From assembly GCA_017959965.1 (NCBI GenBank), contig JAGCZO010000157.1, positions 1 to 53,208 of the forward strand: a stretch of 53,208 nucleotides of DNA. The letters are read 5' to 3'. The DNA comes from Clostridia bacterium. GTDB taxonomy: Bacteria > Bacillota > Clostridia > UBA1212. Within the stretch, counting starts at the first letter, position 1. Each line of letters begins with the position of its first letter. Of the stretch, positions 13,624 through 41,279 are shown one piece after another. Position numbers and translations under genes: made by a program. The notes below the pieces were generated by a model. That model was not told where the DNA came from, did no database searches, and saw nothing but the letters and a program-made list of their open reading frames with translations.

Positions 13624-14958
13624 TCAGCCGAAGGTCACGTCCCAGCCGGCGAGATATCTGGCCAGCATGATGGCATCCCAGTCGGAGACTTCACTGTCGC
13701 CGTCGAGATCAAGGGCGTCAAGATCGACATCAACGCTCCAGCCTGCCAGGTAACGCTCAAAGCTAATGGCATCCCAGTCGGAGAGCTCTCCGTCGCCGTC
13801 GGCATCGCCGAGCAGAACGTCGGTCTCGTCATCAGGATCCTCGGGACCGGTGTATTCTGCCGTTCTGAGGGCACAGTAGGGATAGAGCTCCGCTTCATCT
13901 CCGTTTACGAAGAACTCCCAATCTCCTCTTTCGATCGAATTCTCAGTGCCCTGCCAGAAACCGATAGCGCCCTCGTTTATGCGGGTGATGACTATGAGAT
14001 AACGGCGTCCGGCTTTCAGTTTGGCGCCGAAATCAAATTTCAGATCCTGGTTATCGATGTGATCCAGAACTTCGTCCGAGAATACCGGGGAGGAAGCAAT
14101 CGTGGTGTCATAATCGCCTTTCCAGACGTAAACGTCAACGCCTGCGTCAGAGTCGTGATTCTTGTTGCTCCAGGTGGGAGACTGCTTGAAGGTGAATTCC
14201 TTGATGACTTTTCCTGCGGGGACCTGCTCCGTAAGGATCGCGAATTCTTCATCTTTTCCTATTTGGTGAGGATCGTAAGCTCCGTCCACACGGGCAATGA
14301 TAGTGGTCTCCACGTCTTCTATGAAGTACGAAGGAGTCGACGTTTCGATAGATTTAAAGAACTCCGATGCGGCGACTGAGCCGTCGTAGAAAACGCCGAA
14401 AACAAAATCAGATCCGAGCACGTTTTTAGTCGATCCGAACTTTATGTATGAAGGTCCGTAAGCAGCCACGCCTGAAGGGAGAACTGTGTACGGCCCGGGG
14501 GCGTTGGGATTCAGAGTCTCCGCATACGGAGTTATCTGTGCGATCCTGAAAATATACTGGCCTGCGGGCAGAGTCTTTCCGAATCTGAACTCGACGTTAA
14601 GAGTATCTCCGTCGATGTTCCTGTCTTCGGAGAAGAGCGGGGCGGCCGCAACGGATGAATCCGCATCGCCGTCGAAAGCAAAGATCTCAAAACGTACGGT
14701 TGCATCAGCTTCATCAGCGCTTTTGCCGGCAAAGATAACAGGCAAATAGATTCCTGTGATGGGCGCCGCCGCGTTGAAAGTGGCATCGACGTTTCCGACG
14801 CAGTTTCCGTCGCTGTCAAACTGGCTCAGCCAGTATCCTACGCCGGTCGCGACGCCGGTATCGTATGAAAAAGCCAGACCTTCGTCGGCAAAAGATCCGA
14901 TCAGGCATACGGAGAGGATCATGGAAACGGCCAGAAGAACAGCTAATAATTTTTTCAT
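13624..14958 (-). CDS. Secreted dockerin protein with two beta-sandwich modules
   Basis: The 444-residue protein has a signal peptide (ending GSFADEG, about residue 24) and two copies of a beta-rich module at about 65-170 and 225-350. Typical phrases are APLFSEDRNIDGD ... LPAGQYIFRI and VYVWKGDYDTTIASSPVFS. A type I dockerin fills residues 384-444. Its two calcium loops read DADGDGELSDWD and DLDGDSEVSDWD, each followed by RYLAGW. The dockerin would attach the protein to a cohesin-bearing scaffold on the cell surface. No catalytic motif was seen, so it is probably a binding or structural subunit. GGAGGAG precedes the ATG. The 278 bases upstream hold an imperfect TTCGGGAAA/TTTCCGGAA hairpin and nothing else I recognise. 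Confidence 0.8.
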   Translation of the reverse strand: MKKLLAVLLAVSMILSVCLIGSFADEGLAFSYDTGVATGVGYWLSQFDSDGNCVGNVDATFNAAAPITGIYLPVIFAGKSADEADATVRFEIFAFDGDADSSVAAAPLFSEDRNIDGDTLNVEFRFGKTLPAGQYIFRIAQITPYAETLNPNAPGPYTVLPSGVAAYGPSYIKFGSTKNVLGSDFVFGVFYDGSVAASEFFKSIETSTPSYFIEDVETTIIARVDGAYDPHQIGKDEEFAILTEQVPAGKVIKEFTFKQSPTWSNKNHDSDAGVDVYVWKGDYDTTIASSPVFSDEVLDHIDNQDLKFDFGAKLKAGRRYLIVITRINEGAIGFWQGTENSIERGDWEFFVNGDEAELYPYCALRTAEYTGPEDPDDETDVLLGDADGDGELSDWDAISFERYLAGWSVDVDLDALDLDGDSEVSDWDAIMLARYLAGWDVTFG

Positions 14959-20204: not shown

Positions 20205-21683
20205 TCAACCCGGACCGGTACGGAGCATGTATTTTCTGATGAAATACGAGGGGGTGCAGCTCCAGGCGTGGCAGAAGCTGTTCATAGCGGGAGAGCCGTA
20301 GGGTGAGGCTTCCGGATCTCCGGGCACGAATACCTCGGGGAAGCAGTCATAGCCGCGGTCAAGCATTCCGCCCCAATAGCTTTTGAGCAGGGCAAAAGCT
20401 TCGTCCTTAAGACCGGAAAGGATAAGCGCTTCGACGAAATAATGCATCGCATAGGGCGCCACGGGACTCACAAGCTCCGCTTTGAGAGCCGCCTTCATCA
20501 TTTCTTTCTGCTCCCGGGGCCCGAGAACTCCTGCGAGTGCCGCCCACATCTGGGAGTGGGCCGACAGCTGACCTGAGGCTCCCCGGAAAAGACGGATATC
20601 GGGGGAATACATATCAAGCAGCGCCGATGAAACGTCTTTGATCCGTTCTTCCAACGAAGCTTGTTCCCAGGCTGTGCCCACGGTATCGGCGAGATAAAGA
20701 GCCTCTTTGAACATTGCCAGGATCATTCCGAGGGCGGCGCAGGACTTGTCAAGAGACGGACACCAGTCGATGAAGAAAAGGTCGACGTTGGCGGAACGGC
20801 CGCACTGTTCGAAACTTTTGTAAGCAAGCTCGGTCTGGCGGTAAGCGGCGGGCCAGAGCTCCTTCAAAACGCCAATGTCACCCGTTGCCCTGTAGTAGTC
20901 TGCCAGGGCTCCGACAAAAAGCAGGGCGTAGTCATGGAGCACCCAGGACTGGTTTTTAAGCACCGGCTCGTGGAAGACCGCTGAGGAAAGAAGCCCGTCG
21001 TCATGGGGGAGGCCGGCGAACAGATACAGACAGCGGAGGACCAGGCCGTTGTTTTTGAAGGTATAATAGTTCGTCTTGGCCTGGAGGTAAAGGTCGCCCA
21101 GCCAGAGCCTCCGGTCCCTCTTGGGGCCGTCCTCGAAGACCTGCTGCATGCAGTCTCTGAGCGTCAGGAGGGAGACCTTGTCAAGCTTCACGAGAAGGGG
21201 GTCCGTGTTTTCCGGAAGAGGCGCGACCTTGGTCATATCGGCGGAGGTCACGGCCCTCACAAAACAGTCCTTGTACACCACGGAGTAGCTGGTGTTTGAC
21301 GGAAAGCGGATCTTCACGTATCTGAAGGAGTAGCGGCGGTGAAGCTCGATGGGCGCGTAAGGATCGTCAATGAGTACGCTTGCGTTCTGGAACCAGGAGC
21401 GGGACATGCCGCCGGTGTAGGGCTCATCCGTATTTTCCCGCAAATTTTCGAAAAATCTGAACTCGACTGCCAGCGGCGCGTCCGCCGCGTCGTCCCCGGG
21501 CCTTTTCACGTCAAGGGCCAGCGTCAGATAACCGACGAAATGGGAGCCGAAATCCAGAGTGAAACCGTCTCCGTCCCTCATCAGTCTGTCCTTGCCGGGC
21601 ATTCCGGAGACCGGCCGCACCGTCGTCTCGTAAAGGACGGGCATAAGGTCATGCGCTTTTTTCAAAAAACGGTCATCCTTCAT
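20205..21683 (-). CDS. GH78-like (alpha-L-rhamnosidase-related) six-hairpin glycosidase
   Basis: The protein (492 residues from the ATG at 21683) has an N-terminal beta-sandwich (about 1-155, with FGSHFVGYLTLALDV and YSFRYVKIRFPS) and a helical toroid catalytic domain (about 170-490). The diagnostic phrase is FEDGPKRDRRLWLGDLYLQ near residue 193, equivalent to the CPQRDERxGWxGD region of GH78 enzymes that holds acidic catalytic residues. There is no signal peptide. Its ATG overlaps the TGA of the upstream GH99-like gene (ATGA), indicating translational coupling. A longer start at 21713 has no good ribosome site. It is shorter than typical GH78 enzymes, and the sugar released is uncertain. Confidence 0.7.
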   Translation of the reverse strand: MKDDRFLKKAHDLMPVLYETTVRPVSGMPGKDRLMRDGDGFTLDFGSHFVGYLTLALDVKRPGDDAADAPLAVEFRFFENLRENTDEPYTGGMSRSWFQNASVLIDDPYAPIELHRRYSFRYVKIRFPSNTSYSVVYKDCFVRAVTSADMTKVAPLPENTDPLLVKLDKVSLLTLRDCMQQVFEDGPKRDRRLWLGDLYLQAKTNYYTFKNNGLVLRCLYLFAGLPHDDGLLSSAVFHEPVLKNQSWVLHDYALLFVGALADYYRATGDIGVLKELWPAAYRQTELAYKSFEQCGRSANVDLFFIDWCPSLDKSCAALGMILAMFKEALYLADTVGTAWEQASLEERIKDVSSALLDMYSPDIRLFRGASGQLSAHSQMWAALAGVLGPREQKEMMKAALKAELVSPVAPYAMHYFVEALILSGLKDEAFALLKSYWGGMLDRGYDCFPEVFVPGDPEASPYGSPAMNSFCHAWSCTPSYFIRKYMLRTGPG

Positions 21684-24184
21684 TTCTCTTTGCGCCTCTT
21701 TGTTTTTTTGCATAACGCCAATGCGCCCGCGGCAAGGGCCGCCGGAAGAGCTCCCGCAGAGACCCCGGCGCCGCAGCCGGAGGGATCCTTGCCCGCGGGG
21801 TATGCCGCGGCCGCGAACTGGTATTTAAACCTTCCGCCGGGGGCGGTATCTCCCTTGGTGTAAAGCTCCAGAGGATCGCTGCCGTCCGCAAGGTTGTTGT
21901 CCGCCCATTTAAAATTCAACACGAAGGGAACTCCTCTGCCGAGGCCCAGGGCCTCACGGGGGATCTTCAGCTGAAGGATGTTGGCGTTTACCGAAAGCTC
22001 TGCCTCGCCGGTCTTTTCCCAGCTCCAGCCGCCGGAGGATCTCTCAACGGCAGTTATGGAGGAGGCGCCGGGGCTCAGACGGTTGACGATATAATTGAAG
22101 GATTCCCAGGATGGAAGCTTCACTGCCTTGCCGTTTACGGACTCAACGTCTATCAGGAGCCTCATCCAGAGTTCGTCCGTCGGAGACGTGATGTCTTCTG
22201 CAGTTTCGACTCTGAAATACACGAAGTCATTGTCGTAGGAGGCTTTGGCGGACACGATATCGTTGCGGCCGCTCTGATCCTGATACAAGTAATACTCGCC
22301 GGTGGCCTCGTTTTTGTATCCCTTGCAGTCTCTGTCAAATGTGTCGCCGGGGTAGCTCTCGTAAACGAGCTTAACGTCGTCCCAGCCTGCGCCGGTACCG
22401 ATGTCAATTGTGGCGGGCTCCTCCGCTACCGAAGCGGCGGGAACGCCTTTGTACTTTCTGATGAAGCTGCAGAGCTGGTAGTAGTAATTGTCCTTCAGGT
22501 CGCCTTTCGAGGGCTCGATGTCGCGGCTTAATTCGTCGCTGAAATTGTCTGGAAAAGCGTTTTCGACGCCCCAGAAGTCCTCAAAGCGGCCGGCGACGCC
22601 TTCGTTCCAGCCTGTGACCCATATGAACTCGGGATCCACGCTGAGGGCATACTCCCATTGCTCCTGAAAGTACGCTCCGTAGAGTTTGGCGTCGGGACGG
22701 CTGTCGTAATCGCCTTTCGAAGGCATATAGTGGCGCCCGAAGACCTTGAACTTGTCGTTGTTCATGGCCGTAAGGTGTGTCTCGGCGCACCAGTTGTGGG
22801 CAATGGCCACTGCGACCTCCTCGGGGGTGCCGTCAGGGTTCCTGTTTATGAGCTGGGGGGTGGTGGAGATCCAGTTCCAGAGCTGAAAGCTGTCCGTCAC
22901 CTCGGACTGGATGGCTCCCATGACGATGGGATCGCCGGATTCGCTCTGTACCTGGACGTGGTCCCGGGACTGGGCGTGGTTGATCACCCGGTAGTTGAAG
23001 AATTCGTAGATCTCCTTGTCCTCTTCCTTAGAAAGGTTCAGCCTTCCGGGATAGCCAACCATGAGGGGCTTGCCCTTCCAGTAAAACCAAAGCTCCCTAT
23101 AGAGTCCGTCCTTGTAGATATTTTTGTAGATCTCCCGGAGCTGGACCGCCACGTCGTTGTACTCGAACATGGGAAGCATGAAGGATATCTTCGGCGTGTT
23201 CACTCCGTCGGCCCTGGCGAGAGACCAGACCTTCAGCAGCGTCAGAACGTCGTCAATGAAGGTGGCGGTGCCGTTGGTGTTGTCGAAGAACACCGCATCC
23301 ACTCCCGCATCGGCAAGGAGCTCAGCCTGGCGCCTCAGGACCCATTCGTCGGAGCTTCTGTAGTAGCCCCAGATCGGCTCGTTCCAATGGTACGCGCCGG
23401 CGTGTCCCCAGAGAGGACTTGAATAGTCGTTCTTTATCTCGGGGTGCTCCCGAAGTATCTCCGTGATGTTCCTTGTGCCCGATGCGGTGAGACTGGTGTG
23501 CCAGGTGTGGAAGAAAAGTCCCACAGTTTTGTTTTCCCTTACGGTGCTGCTGTAGGAATTGTCAACGGTCCTGCCAAGCTCGTCGATGGCCACCCAGGTG
23601 CCTTGCGAAGAGACGAGCTTCACAACGTTTTCGGAGATCCCCGCCAAAGTGCCCCCGGCGTCTTTAAAAATGATCCTCGAAAGGATATTCCCCTGCCTGA
23701 CGGAGGCGTTGAAGTAGGTCCTTGCGTAGGGCGAGACCGCGGAATCGATGCTCAGCCGGACGCCTCCCAAAGTGTTCTTGATCAGGGCAACGTACTCTCC
23801 CGCAGGCGCCGGACAGTCCATCCGAAGCCAGGTCTGCATGTCGAAATCCTCGAATTTCCGCGTGAAAATCGCACTGCTCCGGGCAGACTCCCCATAGCTT
23901 CCCTTCCATTCGTGAAGCTCCACGGTGAGGCTCGTACCGCTCCCGGAAGCCGTCTTGGCAACGTATATTTCGAAAGCGTCTATTTCCTGACACGATTTAA
24001 ACTGTATGCCGTAGATATTGCCCGCGGTCTTTTCAAGGGAAAAGTCCGACTCCGGGCAGCACAAATACTGATAGCTTCCGGCCGCCATAGATCTTAAAAC
24101 ACCCCCGGTGAAAAATGAGGAGGCGACTGCCGCCAATGCGACCGTTACCGCCAATGTGATCCTGATAAATCGTTTTATACTCAT
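21680..24184 (-). CDS. Secreted GH99/WbsX-like enzyme with N-terminal beta-sandwich, CBM9-like domain and Cys-Gly tail
   Basis: The 834-residue protein is one of four paralogues here. Order: signal peptide (to about residue 35), beta-sandwich module (about 45-150, ending APAGEYVALIKN), catalytic-type barrel (about 195-580), CBM9-like sandwich (about 590-790) and a sorting-type tail (SGCG at 802-805, helix, basic end). Barrel landmarks are GLFFHTWH (222-229), ADAGVDAVFFDNTN (291-304) and VTGWNEG (523-529), where Glu528 is a candidate catalytic acid. The barrel resembles GH99/WbsX glycan hydrolases. The TGWNEW of the other copies ends in Gly here. It is translationally coupled to the GH78-like gene. 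The substrate is unknown. Confidence 0.7.
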   Translation of the reverse strand: MSIKRFIRITLAVTVALAAVASSFFTGGVLRSMAAGSYQYLCCPESDFSLEKTAGNIYGIQFKSCQEIDAFEIYVAKTASGSGTSLTVELHEWKGSYGESARSSAIFTRKFEDFDMQTWLRMDCPAPAGEYVALIKNTLGGVRLSIDSAVSPYARTYFNASVRQGNILSRIIFKDAGGTLAGISENVVKLVSSQGTWVAIDELGRTVDNSYSSTVRENKTVGLFFHTWHTSLTASGTRNITEILREHPEIKNDYSSPLWGHAGAYHWNEPIWGYYRSSDEWVLRRQAELLADAGVDAVFFDNTNGTATFIDDVLTLLKVWSLARADGVNTPKISFMLPMFEYNDVAVQLREIYKNIYKDGLYRELWFYWKGKPLMVGYPGRLNLSKEEDKEIYEFFNYRVINHAQSRDHVQVQSESGDPIVMGAIQSEVTDSFQLWNWISTTPQLINRNPDGTPEEVAVAIAHNWCAETHLTAMNNDKFKVFGRHYMPSKGDYDSRPDAKLYGAYFQEQWEYALSVDPEFIWVTGWNEGVAGRFEDFWGVENAFPDNFSDELSRDIEPSKGDLKDNYYYQLCSFIRKYKGVPAASVAEEPATIDIGTGAGWDDVKLVYESYPGDTFDRDCKGYKNEATGEYYLYQDQSGRNDIVSAKASYDNDFVYFRVETAEDITSPTDELWMRLLIDVESVNGKAVKLPSWESFNYIVNRLSPGASSITAVERSSGGWSWEKTGEAELSVNANILQLKIPREALGLGRGVPFVLNFKWADNNLADGSDPLELYTKGDTAPGGRFKYQFAAAAYPAGKDPSGCGAGVSAGALPAALAAGALALCKKTKRRKEK

Positions 24185-25141: not shown

Positions 25142-25230
25142 TAATTGCCGGAAGCGATAACGCCGGTAAGCGCCGGGGATCCTTCTCCGCGGGGCCCCAC
25201 TCCCTCCTTTTTTTCCCCGGCGGGGTGTAG

Positions 25231-25236
25231 TATAAT
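25231..25236 (+). promoter_or_regulatory. Predicted -10 box of the GH99-like gene at 25271
   Basis: TATAAT at 25231-25236 is a consensus -10 box 34 bases before the GTG start. The -35 position holds only a T-run (25208-25214), so the promoter may need an activator. Confidence 0.4.
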
Positions 25237-25270
25237 TGGCTTGCAAAAGCAACTGAAAAGAGGGAAAAAA

Positions 25271-27850
25271 GTGAACGGATCAAAACGTTTTATTGTCAGG
25301 ATCGCATTGGCGGCAGTCGCCGCGGTAATTCTCGCGGGAATATCGGCGTTTTCGGGAGGATCCGCGGCCGCGGAAGACGCAGGCTCTGTCGTGTACCCTT
25401 TGTGGTACGAAAAATACGGCGCCCGGGACGAGGACACGTGGAAACCGGGCATGAGTGTCCAGTACCAGATATCGACCACTGTGCCGATAAAATCCGTGAC
25501 GCTGAACTATTTTCACTCCACGTCCTCAGAGACGGGACCTGTCGGACTTGAGTTCACGGTGAGAGTGTACAAGTGGGACACCAATATTCTGCAGTCCATC
25601 GGGGCGGAGCCTATATTAACGCAAAAATGCGTATCATATGAGAAAAAGGAAGCCGATTCGGACTACGCGGTCACATGCGATATGTCCGCCGATCCCCTTC
25701 CAAAGGGTGAATACGTTTTTGAATTCGAGAACAATAACAGCTTTTCAGTTTTGCTGTCGAGGCTCATGCCCGCGCCCACGGGCGTCAGGAGCTACCTGGC
25801 GGGAAGGGGCTGGTACGGTTCATTCCCCGGCAGCATTGAATTTACGGAGGACGCGAAATTCGTTTTCCGCTCCGCCACGTCAAACTATAAGCTTGTCTAC
25901 AACGAACCCCCGGAGGAGCCTGTGCTGACCGAGGACGACCCCATCGTTTCCCTTGGCGTCGATTCCACAAAGTGGGGCGCGGTGGACGGCCTGGGAAGAA
26001 CTCTGCCGGACAACAGTGAGACCGGCGATAAGAAGGAAAAGCTCGTCGGCATTTTCTACTGGACTTGGCACATGGGAAACCGCTCCAAGGAAAATCCCAA
26101 AAACATTAACAATATTCTTGAGGAATATCCTGAGGCGGTGAACGACTACTACCATCAGGTGTGGCAGACGGGAGGCGCCAATTTCTGGAATGAGCCCATA
26201 TACGGATACTATATCGAATCGGACGACTACGTTCTCAGAAAGCACGCGGAGCTGCTTGCGGACGCGGGCATTGACTTTGTTCTTTTCGACTGCACGAACG
26301 GCTCCATGGTGTGGACCGAAGCCTACATGAATCTGCTCAGGGTCTGGTCCGATGCCCGCAAGGACGGTGTAAAAACTCCTAAAATTGCGTTTATGATGCA
26401 ATTTGACTACAGCGGCAACACCAGGGCCTCCCTCTGGGATATCTACACGAACCTCTACAAGAAAGGATTTTACAAGGATCTTTGGTTCTATCTTGACGGC
26501 AAGCCCATGGTGATGGCCTGGGAGACGGGACTTGACACCAACGTCGGCGATGAGGCCGAGATCAGGTCCTTCTTCACCTACAGACATCCCATTGCCGGCT
26601 ACTGGGCCCAGGACGGAACCGACGACAGCTGGGGCTGGCTCAGCGCGTATCCCCAGGCCTGCTACTACAACGAGGACGGCACGGTGGAAATGACCACGGT
26701 GGGTATTGCCCAGAACGCCAATTACGAGACCCGGAGTCTCAGCGCCATGAACAGCGGCAAAAACATGGGCCGGTCCTACGCCGCGCAGCCGAATTATTCC
26801 TACAGCTACACTTACCGGGGACGAAGGATCACGGTGGACTCCAAGATCGAGAACAGCAAGCTCTACGGCCGCAATTTCCAGGAGCAGTGGGACTACGCCA
26901 TCTCCAAGGACCCGGAGATAGTTTTCGTGACGGGCTGGAACGAATGGATCATGGGCAGGTACGAGGAATGGTGCGGCGTCAGCAACGCCTTCCCGGATCA
27001 GTGCAACGACGAGAACTCCAGAGACATTGAACCCTCAAAAGGCGACCTCAAGGACTATTACTACTACCAGCTCGTCGCCAACGTCAGACGCTTCAAGGGG
27101 ACCTCGGAGCAGGACTATCAGCCGGACCCGAAGACTATTGATTTCTCAGGCGAAATGAGCCAATGGGACGACCCCTCGATCGTGACCTACAACCACTACG
27201 CGAATAATACTTTGCCAAGGAACAACATCGGCTTCGGCGAGCTGAAATACGTTTCCGAAGGTATCAGAAACGACTTCGTACAGACGAAAGTCTCCTACGA
27301 CAAAGACAATCTGTGGTTCTACGTAAAGACCGCCTCAGGCATAACTCCCTTCGAGGCCGGCAACTGGATGACTCTGCTCATAGACTCCCGGGCTGCCACG
27401 GCGTTTTCGAAGGACTGGGAGGACTTCGAATACATAATAGGGCGCGAAGGCACCACGGAGGATACGATGGTCCTGGAAAAGAGCACCGGCGGCTGGAACT
27501 GGGAATCCGTGGGAAACGTCAAATACCGCGTGTCGGGAAATGAAATGGTGATCGAGGTGCCCCGGAAGCTGCTGGGCGGCGCGGGCAGCTCCCTTGATTT
27601 CGGTTTCAAGTGGTGCGACAATAACCTTGCCGAGGGCGACATAATGGACCTTTACACGGACGGGGACGCGGCCCCCGGCGGAAGGTTCGTGTTCAGATTC
27701 GCGACGAAGCCCTCAGTTAAAAACGGCTGGGTGATACCGGTGATCATAGTCTGCTGCGCAGTCGCGGCGGCGGCCGCATTGGCGGTCGTGATCGTCGTTC
27801 TTAAGAAGAAAAAAGCGGAAAAACCCGCCGAAAACGTTAAAAACGATTGA
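25271..27850 (+). CDS. Secreted GH99/WbsX-like enzyme with CBM9-like domain and C-terminal membrane anchor
   Basis: The start is the GTG at 25271, preceded by GAGGG, giving 859 residues and a clean signal peptide (about 1-34); the frame also extends upstream without a good start. Order: beta-sandwich module (about 60-165, with VRVYKWDTNILQSIGAEPIL and LPKGEYVFEFEN), barrel (about 230-610) and CBM9-like domain (about 620-815). A membrane helix (about 822-845) and KKKKAEK end it. Barrel marks are GIFYWTWHMG (260-269), LADAGIDFVLFDCTNG and VTGWNEW (553-559; Glu558). It would be a membrane-tethered exo-facing glycosidase. It is closest to the 21680-24184 paralogue, with WNEPIxGYY and SRDIEPSKGDLKD shared. 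Confidence 0.7.
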   Translation: MNGSKRFIVRIALAAVAAVILAGISAFSGGSAAAEDAGSVVYPLWYEKYGARDEDTWKPGMSVQYQISTTVPIKSVTLNYFHSTSSETGPVGLEFTVRVYKWDTNILQSIGAEPILTQKCVSYEKKEADSDYAVTCDMSADPLPKGEYVFEFENNNSFSVLLSRLMPAPTGVRSYLAGRGWYGSFPGSIEFTEDAKFVFRSATSNYKLVYNEPPEEPVLTEDDPIVSLGVDSTKWGAVDGLGRTLPDNSETGDKKEKLVGIFYWTWHMGNRSKENPKNINNILEEYPEAVNDYYHQVWQTGGANFWNEPIYGYYIESDDYVLRKHAELLADAGIDFVLFDCTNGSMVWTEAYMNLLRVWSDARKDGVKTPKIAFMMQFDYSGNTRASLWDIYTNLYKKGFYKDLWFYLDGKPMVMAWETGLDTNVGDEAEIRSFFTYRHPIAGYWAQDGTDDSWGWLSAYPQACYYNEDGTVEMTTVGIAQNANYETRSLSAMNSGKNMGRSYAAQPNYSYSYTYRGRRITVDSKIENSKLYGRNFQEQWDYAISKDPEIVFVTGWNEWIMGRYEEWCGVSNAFPDQCNDENSRDIEPSKGDLKDYYYYQLVANVRRFKGTSEQDYQPDPKTIDFSGEMSQWDDPSIVTYNHYANNTLPRNNIGFGELKYVSEGIRNDFVQTKVSYDKDNLWFYVKTASGITPFEAGNWMTLLIDSRAATAFSKDWEDFEYIIGREGTTEDTMVLEKSTGGWNWESVGNVKYRVSGNEMVIEVPRKLLGGAGSSLDFGFKWCDNNLAEGDIMDLYTDGDAAPGGRFVFRFATKPSVKNGWVIPVIIVCCAVAAAAALAVVIVVLKKKKAEKPAENVKND

Positions 27851-34870: not shown

Positions 34871-34956
34871 AAAGCCAAACGACCGGAAACGGCGCCGTGG
34901 GTGCGCCGTGAAGATAAGATCACCGGAAAGATTCCGGGGAAAAACGGAGAACTGTG

Positions 34957-36810
34957 ATGACCCATTCGGAAAATTCTTCAACGCAAGGCTTTAAGTCAAT
35001 GAGACAAAACCGCACGTCCGCGTTTGCCAAGGCCCTCGCCTTGCTGGCAGCGGCTGTCGCAGTAATACTTTTGGCGTCGGGGTGCAGCACGGGCCCCGTT
35101 GAAACGTCCGACGAATACGTCAACACCTCCGAGGCGAGGAACAGTGTGACCTTCGCGGTGGACGACCTTGGCAGGAAGACCGTCACGGGGAAGGACGCTC
35201 CGGAAGCCCGGGAGGGTAAATACGTCGGCATTTTCTATTTTCTCTGGCTGGGCGAGCACGGCCTCAGCGGTCCCTACGACAACAGCGTCATCGAGAAGAC
35301 CCTCGGGTCCACTGCGTCGGAAAAGAACTGGATCGACGCCGGCGGCGGAAAGGAGAGGGCTCACCATTTTTGGGGCAAGCCTCTCTTCGACTACTACGTT
35401 TCATCCGATAAATGGGTCACCAGGAAGCACATCCAGATGCTTACGGACGCGGGAATTGACTTCGTGGTCTTCGACACCACGAACTCGGTTACGTACATTG
35501 ACAACGCGCTGAACTTCATTGCCATTGCCCACGAGTACAACCAGGCGGGGTTCAAAGCGCCCCAGGTGGTCTTCTACACCAACACCCGCTCCGGACAGAC
35601 CATGGAGGAGATCTACCGCAAGATTTACATGAAACACCGGGGCTTTTCCGACACCTGGTTCTGCCGCGACGGAAAGCCTCTGATCATCGGAGACAAATAT
35701 GACTCCGGACTTAGCGACGAGGCGTCGGCTTTCTTTACGTTCAAAGCCAATCAGTGGCCGAACGAGGACAAAAAGGACAACGGATTTCCCTGGATGGAAT
35801 TCAGCAGGCTCCTTTCGGATTACGCCGTCTACGGCGAACGGGGACGCAAAGAGATCGTGAACGTTTCGGCGGCACAGCACTGCAACACCATCAGGTTCAG
35901 CGCCACGGCCTGGTACGGCGGTTCGGATCACACCAGAAGCTGGCACGACGGGGCCATCGACACCTCGCCGGACGCGTATCTTTACGGTTACAACATTGCC
36001 GAGCAGTACGAGTGGGCACTCAAAATGGACCCTGAGATAGTGTTTATCACGGGCTGGAACGAGTGGGTCGCCCAGAGACAGCCGGGAAGCGCAGACCAGC
36101 CTGTGGTGTTCGTCGACTGCTGCGACACCGAGTGCAGCCGAGACATCGAACCCATGGAGGGCGGCTTCTTCGACAACTACTACATGCAGATGATATCCTT
36201 CGTCAGAAAATTCAAGGGCGTTGACGCGGACACCTCCGCCGTCAGGAAGACCATAAGCATCGACGGAGGGTTTGCCCAGTGGAACGACGTGGCGGCGTAT
36301 TACGTTGACTACGAGAACGATACGGTGAACCGGGACTGGTACATCTTCGGATCCACTGAAATACAGAACACCACCGGAAGAAACGATATCGTTGAAATGA
36401 AGGTCTGCGAGGATACGCAATACGTCTATTTCTTCGTAAAAACCGCCAATGACATCACCGAGCCCTCAGAGGACTGGATGAGGCTCTACATCGGCACCTA
36501 CGGAAAGGGCCGCGGCGGCTACGACTACTGCGTCAACTACAAAGCACCCGACAAGGAAGGAAAGCTCCACGTCGGAAAGATCGCTCCCGGCACGGGCGAC
36601 TACAGCTTCACGGAGGCCGGCGAGGCAGATTACAGGATCAAGGACAACATGATGATGCTCAGGGTCAGAAAGAGCACCATTGGCGTGTTCATAAACGCAA
36701 ATATTATATTCAAGTGGGCCGACAACTGCGGCGACAACGTTGAAGGCTTCTACAAAAACGGCGACGCCGCTCCCATCGGAAGGGCGGGGTACTGCTACGG
36801 TAACAGATGA
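34957..36810 (+). CDS. Lipid-anchored GH99/WbsX-like enzyme with CBM9-like domain
   Basis: The ATG at 34957 lies 7 bases from GGAG and follows an in-frame GTG. The 617-residue protein has a basic n-region, a hydrophobic segment and lipobox LASGC (Cys43). The barrel (about 60-420) carries GIFYFLWLGEHG (91-102), FWGKPLFDYY, MLTDAGIDFVVFDTTN and ITGWNEW (364-370; Glu369). A CBM9-like domain (about 430-617) starts at ISIDGGFAQWNDV. No beta-sandwich module precedes the barrel, so it is the smallest of the four paralogues. It would sit on the outer membrane face. The next paralogue follows 51 bases downstream and shares FWGKP and SRDIEPMEGG with it. Confidence 0.72.
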   Translation: MTHSENSSTQGFKSMRQNRTSAFAKALALLAAAVAVILLASGCSTGPVETSDEYVNTSEARNSVTFAVDDLGRKTVTGKDAPEAREGKYVGIFYFLWLGEHGLSGPYDNSVIEKTLGSTASEKNWIDAGGGKERAHHFWGKPLFDYYVSSDKWVTRKHIQMLTDAGIDFVVFDTTNSVTYIDNALNFIAIAHEYNQAGFKAPQVVFYTNTRSGQTMEEIYRKIYMKHRGFSDTWFCRDGKPLIIGDKYDSGLSDEASAFFTFKANQWPNEDKKDNGFPWMEFSRLLSDYAVYGERGRKEIVNVSAAQHCNTIRFSATAWYGGSDHTRSWHDGAIDTSPDAYLYGYNIAEQYEWALKMDPEIVFITGWNEWVAQRQPGSADQPVVFVDCCDTECSRDIEPMEGGFFDNYYMQMISFVRKFKGVDADTSAVRKTISIDGGFAQWNDVAAYYVDYENDTVNRDWYIFGSTEIQNTTGRNDIVEMKVCEDTQYVYFFVKTANDITEPSEDWMRLYIGTYGKGRGGYDYCVNYKAPDKEGKLHVGKIAPGTGDYSFTEAGEADYRIKDNMMMLRVRKSTIGVFINANIIFKWADNCGDNVEGFYKNGDAAPIGRAGYCYGNR

Positions 36811-36861
36811 CCGTTCCGCGGAACAGGACGCTTGTTTACAAACGGTAAGGAGAAACGACCT

Positions 36862-39291
36862 ATGAAAAAAATGCTGACGTTCATACTTATATTGGCGATG
36901 ATGCTGTCAATTCTTCCGGCGGGGAATATCGTATCCTTCGGAGATACCGCTCCCCATTACGAGCTGACAGCCGGAAAAGCCTATCCCGGCGGTTCTGTGG
37001 AGCTGACCATTTCGATCGCGAACAATCCCGGGGTCATTTCCCTGAGAAACTCGGTCACGTTCAATATGGACATTTTTACCCTTGAGTCCGTGGAGGATCT
37101 GGGGCTTCTGAACGGATTTACGACTCCCGCGCCGAAAAAGGTGTCCCCTTATACGCTGAGATGGGCGGACGCATTGGCGACGGAGAACAATTTCGCGAAC
37201 GGGGACCTGATCAAGGTCACGTTTACCGTAAATGAAAACGCGGCGCCCGGGAAATATGCCGTGACCGCGGCTCACCTTGAAGCCAGAAACGCAGGAGGAG
37301 AAAAGATCTACTTCACCGCCGCCACTACTGAGATCGAGATCCTTAAACCTCTCAAGGGCGACGCAGACGGCGACGGCGAGATCACGGACTGGGACGCAAT
37401 AATATTTAACAGGTACCTTGCGGGCTGGGAGGTCGAAATAGATCTTTCGGGGCTTGACATTGACGGCGACGGAGAGGTGACCGACTGGGATGCGATCATA
37501 CTGAGCCGCTATCTGGCGGGCTGGCAGATCGAACTGAACCCCGAGGAGACTCCCGTACCCACCCCTGAGTACACCGAAGAATACGTCAATACCGCGACCT
37601 ACAAGAACACGTACTCGATAGGCATCGACGACCTCGACAGAAAGCTTTATACCAGCGAGGCTCCGGCGATGAGAGAGAACCGCCAGGTGGGAATATTCTA
37701 CTTCCTCTGGATCGGCTATCACAGCAGCACTCTGTACGACAACTCAGTTATAGTGGCGAACGATCCCAACGCGATAAAGTCCGTTGACAACTGGATCGCT
37801 GCGGGCGGCGGCGGAGAGCAGGCTTTCCACTTCTGGGGCAAGCCCATGTTCGGCTATTATCCTTCAAACGAAAAGTGGGTCATGAGGAAACACGTTCAGA
37901 TGCTGACAGACGCAGGTATTGATTTTCTGTGCTTCGACGCCACCAATGCCTACACTTATTCTTCCAACGCTCTCAGCCTTATGAAGGTGCTGGAGGAATA
38001 CAGAGTTCAGGGCTGGAGAGTTCCCAAGGTGTGCTTCTACACAAACTCCAGTTCCGGAAAAACCATCAACACGATCTACAACGAGATATACAAGGCGCAC
38101 CCTGAGTATCAGAATCTTTGGTATTACTGGGACGGCAAGCCCATGATCGTCGGCGTTGCAGCTGACAGTGACCTTTCCGCTGAGGCCAAAAACTTCTTCA
38201 GAATAAAAGCAAGCGTCTGGCCCAACTCGGGCAGAACGGACGACGGCTTCCCGTGGATGGAATTCGGCAGGCTTCTTACGAACAATGCGGTCTACGGTCT
38301 CAACGGACGCAAGGAGGTCGTGAACGTTTCGGTGGCCCAGCATAGCTCCACCTGCACCTTCAGTCTGACGGCCTGGTACGGCTCCAACGACAGGACCCGC
38401 AGCTGGCACTCCGGCAAGAACGAAAAGGGTGCCGACGCATATCTCCACGGCTACAATTTCGCGGAGCAGTTCGAATGGGCCCTCAGAGTGGATCCGGAGA
38501 TGATCTTTATCACCGGCTGGAACGAGTGGATCGCCCAGCGTCAGCCACCGAGAAACTCGAGAGAACAGATCATATTCGTTGACAACGCCAGCGCCAACTG
38601 CAGCCGCGACATAGAGCCGATGGAAGGCGGATACGGCGACAACTACTACATGCAGATGATATCCTTCATCCGCCGCTACAAGGGCCTTGACGATGCGGGC
38701 GGAAGCTCGAAAAGGACCGTTGACCTGGAGAACGGATTTGCCCAGTGGAACGACGTTGAGTCTTACTACAAGGACTACGAGGGCGACGCCGTAAGGAGGG
38801 CCAACTCCACCTTTGAGAGAAAGGTGGACTACACGAACCGCAACGACATCACCGAAATGAAGGTGTGCGAGGACGACGGAAACGTCTATTTCTTCGTGAA
38901 AACCAAAGCCGATATCACGGACCCCGCCGCCAACGATTTCTCGCAGACCGGCTGGATGACCTTGTATATATCCACCGACCTGGACAAGGGCTGGAAGGGC
39001 GCGAACTACGTGGTCAATTTTGAGGCGCCATCAGACGGCAGGACCTCCATCGCCACATTGGCGAATTCCGACACCTTCACACCCATCAAGAGCGGCGAGG
39101 TGTCATACAGACTGTACGAGGACATGCTTATGATATCCATACCGAAGTCGATGATAGGCATCTCCGGCAAAGCCAGGCTGGGCTTCAGGTGGTCCGACAA
39201 CAACACCTGGGGAGACGTTTTCAGCTTCTACAAGAACGGCGACTCCGCGCCCATCGGCAGAAATTTCTACACCTACGGGTATGCGGACTGA
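36862..39291 (+). CDS. Secreted cohesin-dockerin-GH99/WbsX-like-CBM9-like enzyme
   Basis: The start is the ATG at 36862, 9 bases after AAGGAG, giving 809 residues. Order: signal peptide (about 1-27); cohesin-like sandwich (about 32-158; AYPGGSVELTISIANNPG, LRWADA, FTVNENAAPGKYAV); type I dockerin (165-226; loops DADGDGEITDWD and DIDGDGEVTDWD); Pro/Thr linker; barrel (about 240-610; GIFYFLWIGYHS, LTDAGIDFLCFDATN, ITGWNEW with Glu555); and CBM9-like domain (615-809). Cohesin and dockerin in one enzyme is unusual, since they normally sit on scaffold and enzyme respectively. It may both dock and present a docking site. Its dockerin matches that of the 13624-14958 protein. The cohesin call rests on motif order only. 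Confidence 0.72.
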   Translation: MKKMLTFILILAMMLSILPAGNIVSFGDTAPHYELTAGKAYPGGSVELTISIANNPGVISLRNSVTFNMDIFTLESVEDLGLLNGFTTPAPKKVSPYTLRWADALATENNFANGDLIKVTFTVNENAAPGKYAVTAAHLEARNAGGEKIYFTAATTEIEILKPLKGDADGDGEITDWDAIIFNRYLAGWEVEIDLSGLDIDGDGEVTDWDAIILSRYLAGWQIELNPEETPVPTPEYTEEYVNTATYKNTYSIGIDDLDRKLYTSEAPAMRENRQVGIFYFLWIGYHSSTLYDNSVIVANDPNAIKSVDNWIAAGGGGEQAFHFWGKPMFGYYPSNEKWVMRKHVQMLTDAGIDFLCFDATNAYTYSSNALSLMKVLEEYRVQGWRVPKVCFYTNSSSGKTINTIYNEIYKAHPEYQNLWYYWDGKPMIVGVAADSDLSAEAKNFFRIKASVWPNSGRTDDGFPWMEFGRLLTNNAVYGLNGRKEVVNVSVAQHSSTCTFSLTAWYGSNDRTRSWHSGKNEKGADAYLHGYNFAEQFEWALRVDPEMIFITGWNEWIAQRQPPRNSREQIIFVDNASANCSRDIEPMEGGYGDNYYMQMISFIRRYKGLDDAGGSSKRTVDLENGFAQWNDVESYYKDYEGDAVRRANSTFERKVDYTNRNDITEMKVCEDDGNVYFFVKTKADITDPAANDFSQTGWMTLYISTDLDKGWKGANYVVNFEAPSDGRTSIATLANSDTFTPIKSGEVSYRLYEDMLMISIPKSMIGISGKARLGFRWSDNNTWGDVFSFYKNGDSAPIGRNFYTYGYAD

Positions 39292-39392: not shown

Positions 39393-41279
39393 ATGGAGAA
39401 GGTTAGATTTAACGACGTAAAGATCACAGGCGGCTTCTGGCGGAAGCGGATCGATCTTGTCAGAAATACAACGCTTAAAGCGGTGTACGACAGATTTTCG
39501 GATACCGGCCGCTTTGCCGCTTTCCGCTGCGACTGGAAGGAAGGCATGCCCAACAAGCCCCACTACTTCTGGGATTCCGACGTGGCAAAATGGATAGAAG
39601 GCGCCGCTTATCTCCTGCAGGAGAAAAGAGATCCCGAGCTGGAGGCGATCGTTGACGGTATTGTCGACAATATAGAGAAAAACCAGTGGGAGGACGGCTA
39701 CTTCAACATTTACTATACGCTTTTCGCCAAAGACAGACGCTTCACCCGCAGGGATGAGCACGAGCTGTACTGCGCGGGCCATCTGATGGAGGCAGCGGTG
39801 GCCTACGCTGAGGCAACGGGGAAAAAAAAGTTCCTCGACTGCATGGTGAAGTACGCCGCATATATCGAAAAACGTTTCAAAACAGACTGCGACACGGGTT
39901 TTGTGACGCCGGGACACGAGGAGATCGAGCTTGCCCTGGTAAAGCTTTACGGTTTTACCGGCGATGAAAGGTGGCTCGAGCTTTCCCGATTTTTTATCGA
40001 CAAGAGAGGCGTCTCAGACGAGCAGCGCCCGGACTGGATGAAGCCGGAGTATAACCAAAGCCACCTGCCCGTAAGAGAGCAGAGGACCGCGGAGGGACAT
40101 TCCGTGAGAGCCTGTTATCTTTACAGCGGCATGGCGGATATTGCCCGGCTCACGGAGGACGGGGAGCTGAAGGAGGCGTGCAAGGCGATCTTTGACGACA
40201 TCACCCGCAAAAAGATGTACGTCACGGGAGGCATCGGTTCGTCCTCGGGCGGAGAGGCCTTCACGGTACCCTATGATCTGCCCAACATCATTTCCTATAC
40301 GGAGACCTGCGCCGCCATTGCCCTTGGGATGTTTGCAGGAAGGATGCAGCTTATCGAAGCCGACTCGAAATACGCGGACACCTTGGAAAGGATCATTTAC
40401 AACGGCTTTTTATCCTCTCTGTCCCTTGACGGAAGGTCGTTTTTCTACGAAAATCCCTTGGAAATACTTCCCTGCATGCACACAAGAGACGTGAGCATTA
40501 AAAATCCGGCGATCCATCTGCCGCCAATGAGAAGAAGCGAGGTCTTCGGCTGCTCCTGCTGCCCTCCGAACATCGTGAGGTTCATACCCTCCATTTCGGA
40601 CTATTTCTACACCGTGGACAACAGCGGAAATCTGCCCCTGATCTACATGCACCAGTTTGCCGAAAGCACCGCCAAAATACCTGCGGGCAAGGGCAGCGTC
40701 ACAATAAAACAGAAAACAAAATTCCCGGAGAACGGGAAGCTGGCGGTCACCGTGAAGGGCGGCAAGGCAATGCTTGCCGTAAGAATACCCTCCTGGAGCG
40801 ACGGCTTTAAGGTCTCTGACCTTTCCGGCGCGATATTCGTCAGGAAGGAAAAGGGCTACGCCTTTTTCAACGTCTCCGACGGCGCGGAGATCAAGCTGGA
40901 TCTCGGAATGAGAATAAGACTCGTGGAGGCAGACCCCTATGCAAGGTTTGACTGCGGCAGGGTCGCGGTCACCCGGGGGCCGGTAGTGTACTGCCTTGAA
41001 GGCTGCGACAACGGAGAGCCCCTGAGAGATATCAAAATAAAAGCCAAGTCGCTCAGGTACAAGGACGACGGCCCCGTAAGAGACGTCCCGTCAATCGTCT
41101 GCGAGGCGACGAGACGCTACGCGGATTCGTTTAAGAACGAACTGTACAAGGAAGCCGGGACTGCCGCAACGCTTGATTTTGAGGCGGTGTTCATACCCTA
41201 CTACGCCATGGCCAACAGAAAAGAGACCGAGATGCAGGTTTGGACCCTTGCCGAGGCCTCCGGCAAAAGACTCGGTTAA
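39393..41279 (+). CDS. GH127 family glycosidase (beta-L-arabinofuranosidase-like)
   Basis: The 628-residue protein has no signal peptide. It matches GH127 (HypBA1-type) enzymes, which use a zinc-bound Cys nucleophile. The two diagnostic clusters are present: SYTETCA (Glu304, Cys306) and GCSCCPPN (Cys389, Cys390), equivalent to the Glu/Cys/Cys/Cys zinc site, one Cys being the nucleophile. Other family phrases are HYFWDSDVAKWIEGA and QWEDGYFNIYY. Members remove terminal beta-L-arabinofuranose; specificity may differ. It would act on imported oligosaccharides. The nth gene follows 15 bases after its stop, so transcription probably continues. Confidence 0.9.
   Translation: MEKVRFNDVKITGGFWRKRIDLVRNTTLKAVYDRFSDTGRFAAFRCDWKEGMPNKPHYFWDSDVAKWIEGAAYLLQEKRDPELEAIVDGIVDNIEKNQWEDGYFNIYYTLFAKDRRFTRRDEHELYCAGHLMEAAVAYAEATGKKKFLDCMVKYAAYIEKRFKTDCDTGFVTPGHEEIELALVKLYGFTGDERWLELSRFFIDKRGVSDEQRPDWMKPEYNQSHLPVREQRTAEGHSVRACYLYSGMADIARLTEDGELKEACKAIFDDITRKKMYVTGGIGSSSGGEAFTVPYDLPNIISYTETCAAIALGMFAGRMQLIEADSKYADTLERIIYNGFLSSLSLDGRSFFYENPLEILPCMHTRDVSIKNPAIHLPPMRRSEVFGCSCCPPNIVRFIPSISDYFYTVDNSGNLPLIYMHQFAESTAKIPAGKGSVTIKQKTKFPENGKLAVTVKGGKAMLAVRIPSWSDGFKVSDLSGAIFVRKEKGYAFFNVSDGAEIKLDLGMRIRLVEADPYARFDCGRVAVTRGPVVYCLEGCDNGEPLRDIKIKAKSLRYKDDGPVRDVPSIVCEATRRYADSFKNELYKEAGTAATLDFEAVFIPYYAMANRKETEMQVWTLAEASGKRLG

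Follow-up and report, generated by a model that had tools for sequence, protein, structure and literature searches.

A cohesin–dockerin cassette on many secreted proteins of a clostridial genome may let enzymes both dock and receive

Introduction

How large a cellulosome can be normally depends on how many cohesins its dedicated scaffoldin carries. Scaffold and enzyme usually sit on separate proteins, and a sequence-only reading of the locus described here had remarked on their union in a single chain; that layout stands, but exceptions to the usual separation are already known, namely Amy4, GH31 enzymes, CipV and adaptor scaffoldins. Amy4 (Sca1) of the Ruminococcus bromii amylosome is a secreted GH13 protein with cohesin and dockerin side by side, whose dockerin binds cells with Ca2+; self-aggregation has been proposed for it, as has the integration of other amylases (PMC5814915, PMC9112005). 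GH31 enzymes with one cohesin and one dockerin have been described in Clostridium perfringens and Akkermansia muciniphila, the C. perfringens system forming pairwise assemblies without classical scaffoldin architecture (PMC12997984); in the assay cited by that paper, the C. perfringens GH31 cohesin did not bind. The same paper cites CipV of Acetivibrio cellulolyticus as a scaffoldin in which a GH9 is joined to cohesins. The adaptor scaffoldin ScaC of R. flavefaciens combines cohesin and dockerin in one chain (PMC4081043), and further adaptor scaffoldins are reviewed in PMC11557425. Finally, the Limousia mucinolysome is a gut clostridial cohesin–dockerin complex directed at non-cellulose substrates, with an anchored cohesin at its base (PMC12997984).

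Here we analyse a gene in a 53,208-nucleotide stretch of DNA (the window) from a Clostridia MAG. Like Amy4, its product is a secreted catalytic protein with adjacent cohesin and dockerin, and ten other genes of the genome share this property. Amy4 is the one such enzyme of its genome, carries a C-terminal cassette and is directed at starch, whereas here at least 11 proteins are concerned, the cassette is mostly N-terminal, and the enzymes that bear it resemble esterases, a lipase, GH99, GH123 and NAGPA. GH31 enzymes likewise bear cohesin and dockerin on a catalytic protein but are single cases; adaptor scaffoldins are described as structural adaptors without enzymes, whereas here the adaptor cassette lies on the enzymes themselves; and CipV is one multi-cohesin scaffoldin, whereas the cassette here has a single cohesin and recurs on many enzymes. 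The Limousia scaffoldins, unlike the proteins here, lack catalytic domains and use LPxTG anchoring. Single enzymes with cohesin and dockerin are therefore already known; the open-licence literature searched gave no case of a genome in which some ten different enzymes carry the pair, which is no proof of absence, and the genome-wide set appears new within that literature.

Results

The window gene occupies an open reading frame at 36832-39291 on the plus strand, and numbering its residues from ATG 36862 agrees with that of the sequence-only reading. The encoded protein is ordered as signal peptide, cohesin, type I dockerin with no linker between the two, P/T-rich linker, GH99-like barrel and CBM9-like domain (Table 1). 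A cohesin-like sandwich had been proposed at residues 32-158, with structure prediction as the means of checking it. The Pfam profile PF00963 (Cohesin) matched the window protein at 32.4 bits (cut-off 24.1; E 1.2e-7), AlphaFold2 modelled this part with a pLDDT of about 87-94 across most of its length, and when the model was compared with the PDB by Foldseek the first 46 matches were all cohesins or cohesin-containing chains (best E 1.6e-9), several of these matches to the jelly-roll fold being type I complexes. The cohesin fold was thus recovered, and an unrelated sandwich is ruled out by both Pfam and fold search. A single-sequence phmmer search of the PDB with the window cohesin gave chance matches only, whereas profiles did retrieve cohesins. 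The type I dockerin read directly behind the cohesin was borne out, and the coordinates of that reading hold: PF00404 (Dockerin_1) matched at 38.5 bits (cut-off 22.9; E 1.3e-9), and both Ca-binding loops, DADGDGEITDWD and DIDGDGEVTDWD, are complete. The AlphaFold2 model is poor in the dockerin part (pLDDT 34-60, from four aligned sequences only) and does not give its orientation. No relative was found in the plasmid collection. The match statistics, together with 15 further or parallel occurrences of the tandem in this genome, exclude chance as its source.

The catalytic-type barrel and the CBM9-like domain of the sequence-only reading hold as module calls, with family assignments that are less firm. 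The barrel matched the GH99 profile PF16317 below the family cut-off (20.9 bits against 33; E 2.2e-4), and its low-confidence model (pLDDT 48.5) was matched by Foldseek to GH71/GH99 enzymes; because of the sub-threshold match and the poor AlphaFold2 model, we keep the enzyme class as GH99-like. The CBM9-like assignment comes from one weak Foldseek match, to 7nwn (E 0.045).

Table 1 Features of the window gene and of its relatives in the window
Feature	Position	Strand	Basis
Ribosome-binding site AAGGAG	36847..36852	+	Sequence; 9 bases 5' of ATG 36862
Signal peptide MKKMLTFILILAMMLSILPAGNIVSFGD, residues 1-28	36862..36945	+	Sequence, N-terminal hydropathy
Cohesin module, residues 30-161	36949..37344	+	PF00963 above cut-off; AlphaFold2 pLDDT ~90; top Foldseek matches cohesins only
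Cohesin residue 22	37006-37008		
Cohesin residue 36	37048-37050		
Fixed-length junction of 15 residues, from conserved F of last cohesin motif to G before first dockerin loop	37312..37356	+	Alignment
Type I dockerin, two Ca-binding loops	37345..37539	+	PF00404, alignment, motif counts
Dockerin recognition pairs D-W	37387-37392 and 37483-37488	+	Alignment, motif counts
P/T/E-rich linker from dockerin to catalytic domain; varies among paralogues	37540..37569	+	Sequence
GH99/GH71-like barrel with TGWNEW motif; limits approximate	37570..38685	+	Weak PF16317 and fold matches
CBM9-like beta domain; limits approximate	38700..39288	+	Weak fold match 7nwn
Neighbouring paralogue (53% identity over 571 aa) with lipoprotein signal LLASGC, lacking cohesin and dockerin	34954..36810	+	
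Paralogue, 31% identical; C-terminal membrane helix in place of cassette	25145..27850	+	
Paralogue, 33% identical; C-terminal hydrophobic stretch and basic tail in place of cassette	21680..24184	-	
Exported protein with C-terminal dockerin only; D-W motifs as in window cassette dockerin	13624..14958	-	

Four GH99-like paralogues lie inside the window on 18 kb and display three kinds of surface attachment: a lipobox, a C-terminal helix (two genes) and the cohesin–dockerin cassette. In the window gene the cassette replaces the membrane anchor of the sister paralogues, as would suit a role in attaching the enzyme to the surface, and it looks like an alternative device for that purpose. The lipobox paralogue ends 51 bases before the window gene, with which it likely shares an operon. 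Downstream, at 39393-41279 (+), lies a gene for a GH127-type protein whose sole NCBIfam match, 'aceric acid hydrolase', scored 373.6 bits against a cut-off of 950.

Profile searches of the whole MAG (label G000; 2.45 Mb, 235 contigs, reported contamination 8.35%), in which genes were cut from contig stretches, returned 27 cohesin and 48 dockerin matches. Grouping these into reading frames left 18 cohesin genes, among which a C117 gene broken by an in-frame TGA was entered once, and 31 dockerin-only frames. A dockerin directly follows a cohesin in 15 of the 18 cohesin genes, ruling out a one-off fusion. Eleven of these 15 encode single-cassette proteins with other domains, three are scaffoldin-like with several cohesins, and one is a fragment (C212). 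Two of the scaffoldin-like genes lie on C117 and the third on C133; C133:7274-11510 has five cohesins and three dockerins, and C117:8267-16846 four and one. Besides the GH99-like protein of the window, the 11 single-cassette proteins comprise a GDSL/CE2-like esterase, a NAGPA, a CotH/RCC1 protein, a class 3 lipase, two SASA esterases (catalytic parts 73% identical), two relatives of a GH123-like protein, and two proteins without a clear enzyme match. As for the cohesin genes that lack a dockerin, C198 ends at a contig border, while the cohesin-only products of C93:16774-17980 and C233:2772-3507 end in a C-terminal hydrophobic helix, which none of the cassette enzymes has, and are predicted on this basis to be surface-anchored. 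The dockerin proteins scanned with Pfam gave no match to a cellulase family, so we do not class the complex as a strict cellulosome.

Some further observations concern individual members of this set. The in-frame TGA at C117:7497 (L034:7497-7499; L100) falls inside the last cohesin of a scaffoldin-like gene, behind which frame, cohesin and dockerin resume; it may reflect an assembly error, a pseudogene or recoding. The N-terminal region of C133:7274-11510 (residues 1-484), which has no Pfam family match, recurs at 34-45% identity in the dockerin proteins C212:14790, C233:3584, C184:14347 and C51:24906. The dockerin at C204:267-446 is divergent, its recognition pairs being S-L and S-Y where nearly all others have D-W; it perhaps has a different specificity or stands outside the system.

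Alignment of the cassettes revealed a junction of identical length in 15 of 15, with varying residues; the dockerin-to-enzyme linker, by contrast, is freely variable. No more than about four residues lie between the final cohesin strand and the dockerin. Given the constant junction length, we infer that the cassette is a rigid module.

In type I dockerins, loop positions 10 and 11 set recognition. The D-W pair is found in 15/17 first and 14/17 second repeats of cassette dockerins, and in 29/31 and 30/31 of those without a cohesin; with recognition pairs equal between the two groups, a separate specificity for cassette dockerins is rejected. On the cohesin side, S33, R35, R73 and W74 are invariant across all 23 aligned cohesins, cassette and free alike, and S33 and R35 align with S and D at strand-3 positions of a CipA/anchoring cohesin which we take to be dockerin contacts. 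As both the D-W pairs and the docking-face residues are shared, one common cohesin–dockerin specificity is the simplest reading for this genome, and a likely one.

Cassette and free cohesins do differ at two positions. Residue 36 is N, T, C or Q (I in one case) in cassette cohesins versus F, I, V or L in free ones, and residue 22 is mostly hydrophobic in the former versus mostly charged in the latter, neither split being reached in 2000 label shuffles. Kinship accounts for part of this, since the cassette and free labels cluster on the tree; the label nonetheless switches five times, so that the cassette cohesins are not one clean clade. The residue-36 split is seen again at loci L061 and L062, with L063 as an exception. 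In the alignment, residue 36 falls on a canonical hydrophobic core site; on strand 2, residue 22 alternates outward. The two changes may adapt the back sheet of the cohesin to the attached dockerin, and given these differences cassette cohesins may have altered binding or none.

In the order searched, full cassettes (E < 1e-25) were found only in this MAG (about 18) and in G027. None of five same-genus genomes has one, and the cassette therefore does not belong to the core of the genus. Among 391 genomes of the class, cassettes of full length occur in at least roughly two dozen, with one to four each outside the present MAG, these counts per genome being a lower bound with 8 candidates scored in each. 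The tandem is thus widespread yet scattered, and this MAG is a clear outlier among the genomes examined. In two related 'Oscillospiraceae' MAG loci, L061 and L062, the cassette gene (X-Coh-Doc) has behind it a gene for a cohesin protein that ends in a membrane helix. In many relatives, a cohesin gene without dockerin adjoins a cohesin–dockerin gene at L061:4560-6377, L062, L069, L090, L105, L106, L109, L110 and L115. Cassette protein and anchor possibly form a conserved two-gene unit.

Discussion

We favour an enzyme able both to dock and to receive, because the layout is repeated, the dockerins share their motifs and the cohesins the residues of their docking face, cohesins with predicted anchors are present and the junction is fixed. 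On these sequence features we hold it rather probable that the cohesin–dockerin pair is a relay cassette, docking its enzyme and at the same time offering a socket. A rigid cassette of this kind would be fitted to at least 11 secreted, mostly enzyme-like proteins of a gut-type bacterium. Its dockerin would plug into a cohesin of a membrane-anchored protein, of a scaffoldin or of another cassette enzyme, and its own cohesin would then take up the next dockerin protein. The cohesin-only proteins of C93 and C233:2772, with their C-terminal anchors, could begin such chains, and the 31 dockerin-only proteins could cap them, so that enzymes would double as scaffold in the order anchored cohesin, cassette enzymes, dockerin-only enzymes. 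What we infer is binding itself, a common specificity, that cassettes do not dock on themselves, and that a chain can hold several cassette enzymes.

In XDoc pairs, an accessory beta module, the X module, abuts the dockerin at fixed length and stabilises and presents it; the junction here is fixed too, but the module in front of it is a cohesin whose docking-face residues are conserved. By analogy, the cassette cohesin could stabilise and present its own dockerin and receive none, leaving an ordinary dockerin enzyme. Such a partner would suit the fixed, linker-free junction, the cassette-specific change at the core site of residue 36, and the surface change at residue 22, which the strand alternation places outside the dockerin-binding sheet. 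Against it, S33, R35, R73 and W74 do not vary within or between cassette and free cohesins; moreover, the 31 dockerin-only proteins manage without one, and cassettes also occur inside multi-cohesin proteins (C133). We regard a purely structural role as unlikely.

Since cassette cohesins and dockerins appear to share specificity, self- and mutual binding are possible, and a cassette that docks on itself, or two that dock reciprocally, would yield a latent monomer or a dimer in place of open chains. Amy4 of R. bromii was proposed to be able to self-aggregate via its own cohesin and dockerin (PMC5814915). With some four residues between the last cohesin strand and the first dockerin loop, the geometry deduced from the alignment would make self-docking on the far cohesin sheet hard, an argument that bears on self-docking only; closed assemblies of either sort strike us as distinctly improbable. 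That the cohesin and dockerin contigs derive from another organism in the MAG might be suspected from its reported 8.35% contamination and from the missing cassettes in the same-genus genomes. The window contig, however, carries polC along with the cassette gene, and this PolC is 64-78% identical to those of same-genus genomes, declining with kinship, while the cohesin contigs stay within the range of the other contigs in both GC and tetranucleotide profile, making a foreign origin very hard to credit.

Returning to the relay cassette, its furthest extension would be a self-extending complex, in which about ten kinds of enzyme with one cohesin–dockerin specificity join in a head-to-tail row, with a membrane-anchored cohesin at its base and dockerin-only enzymes as caps; from the gene set we advance this tentatively, as a possibility with somewhat less than even prospects. 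If true, enzymes carrying both halves would lift the limit on size, the enzymes expressed would decide composition, and chain length would follow the ratio of cassette to dockerin-only proteins. In the window, the cassette would serve one paralogue of an enzyme whose sisters carry lipid or helix anchors. For enzyme engineering, such a pair would also offer a polymerisation cassette of natural origin that is genetically portable.
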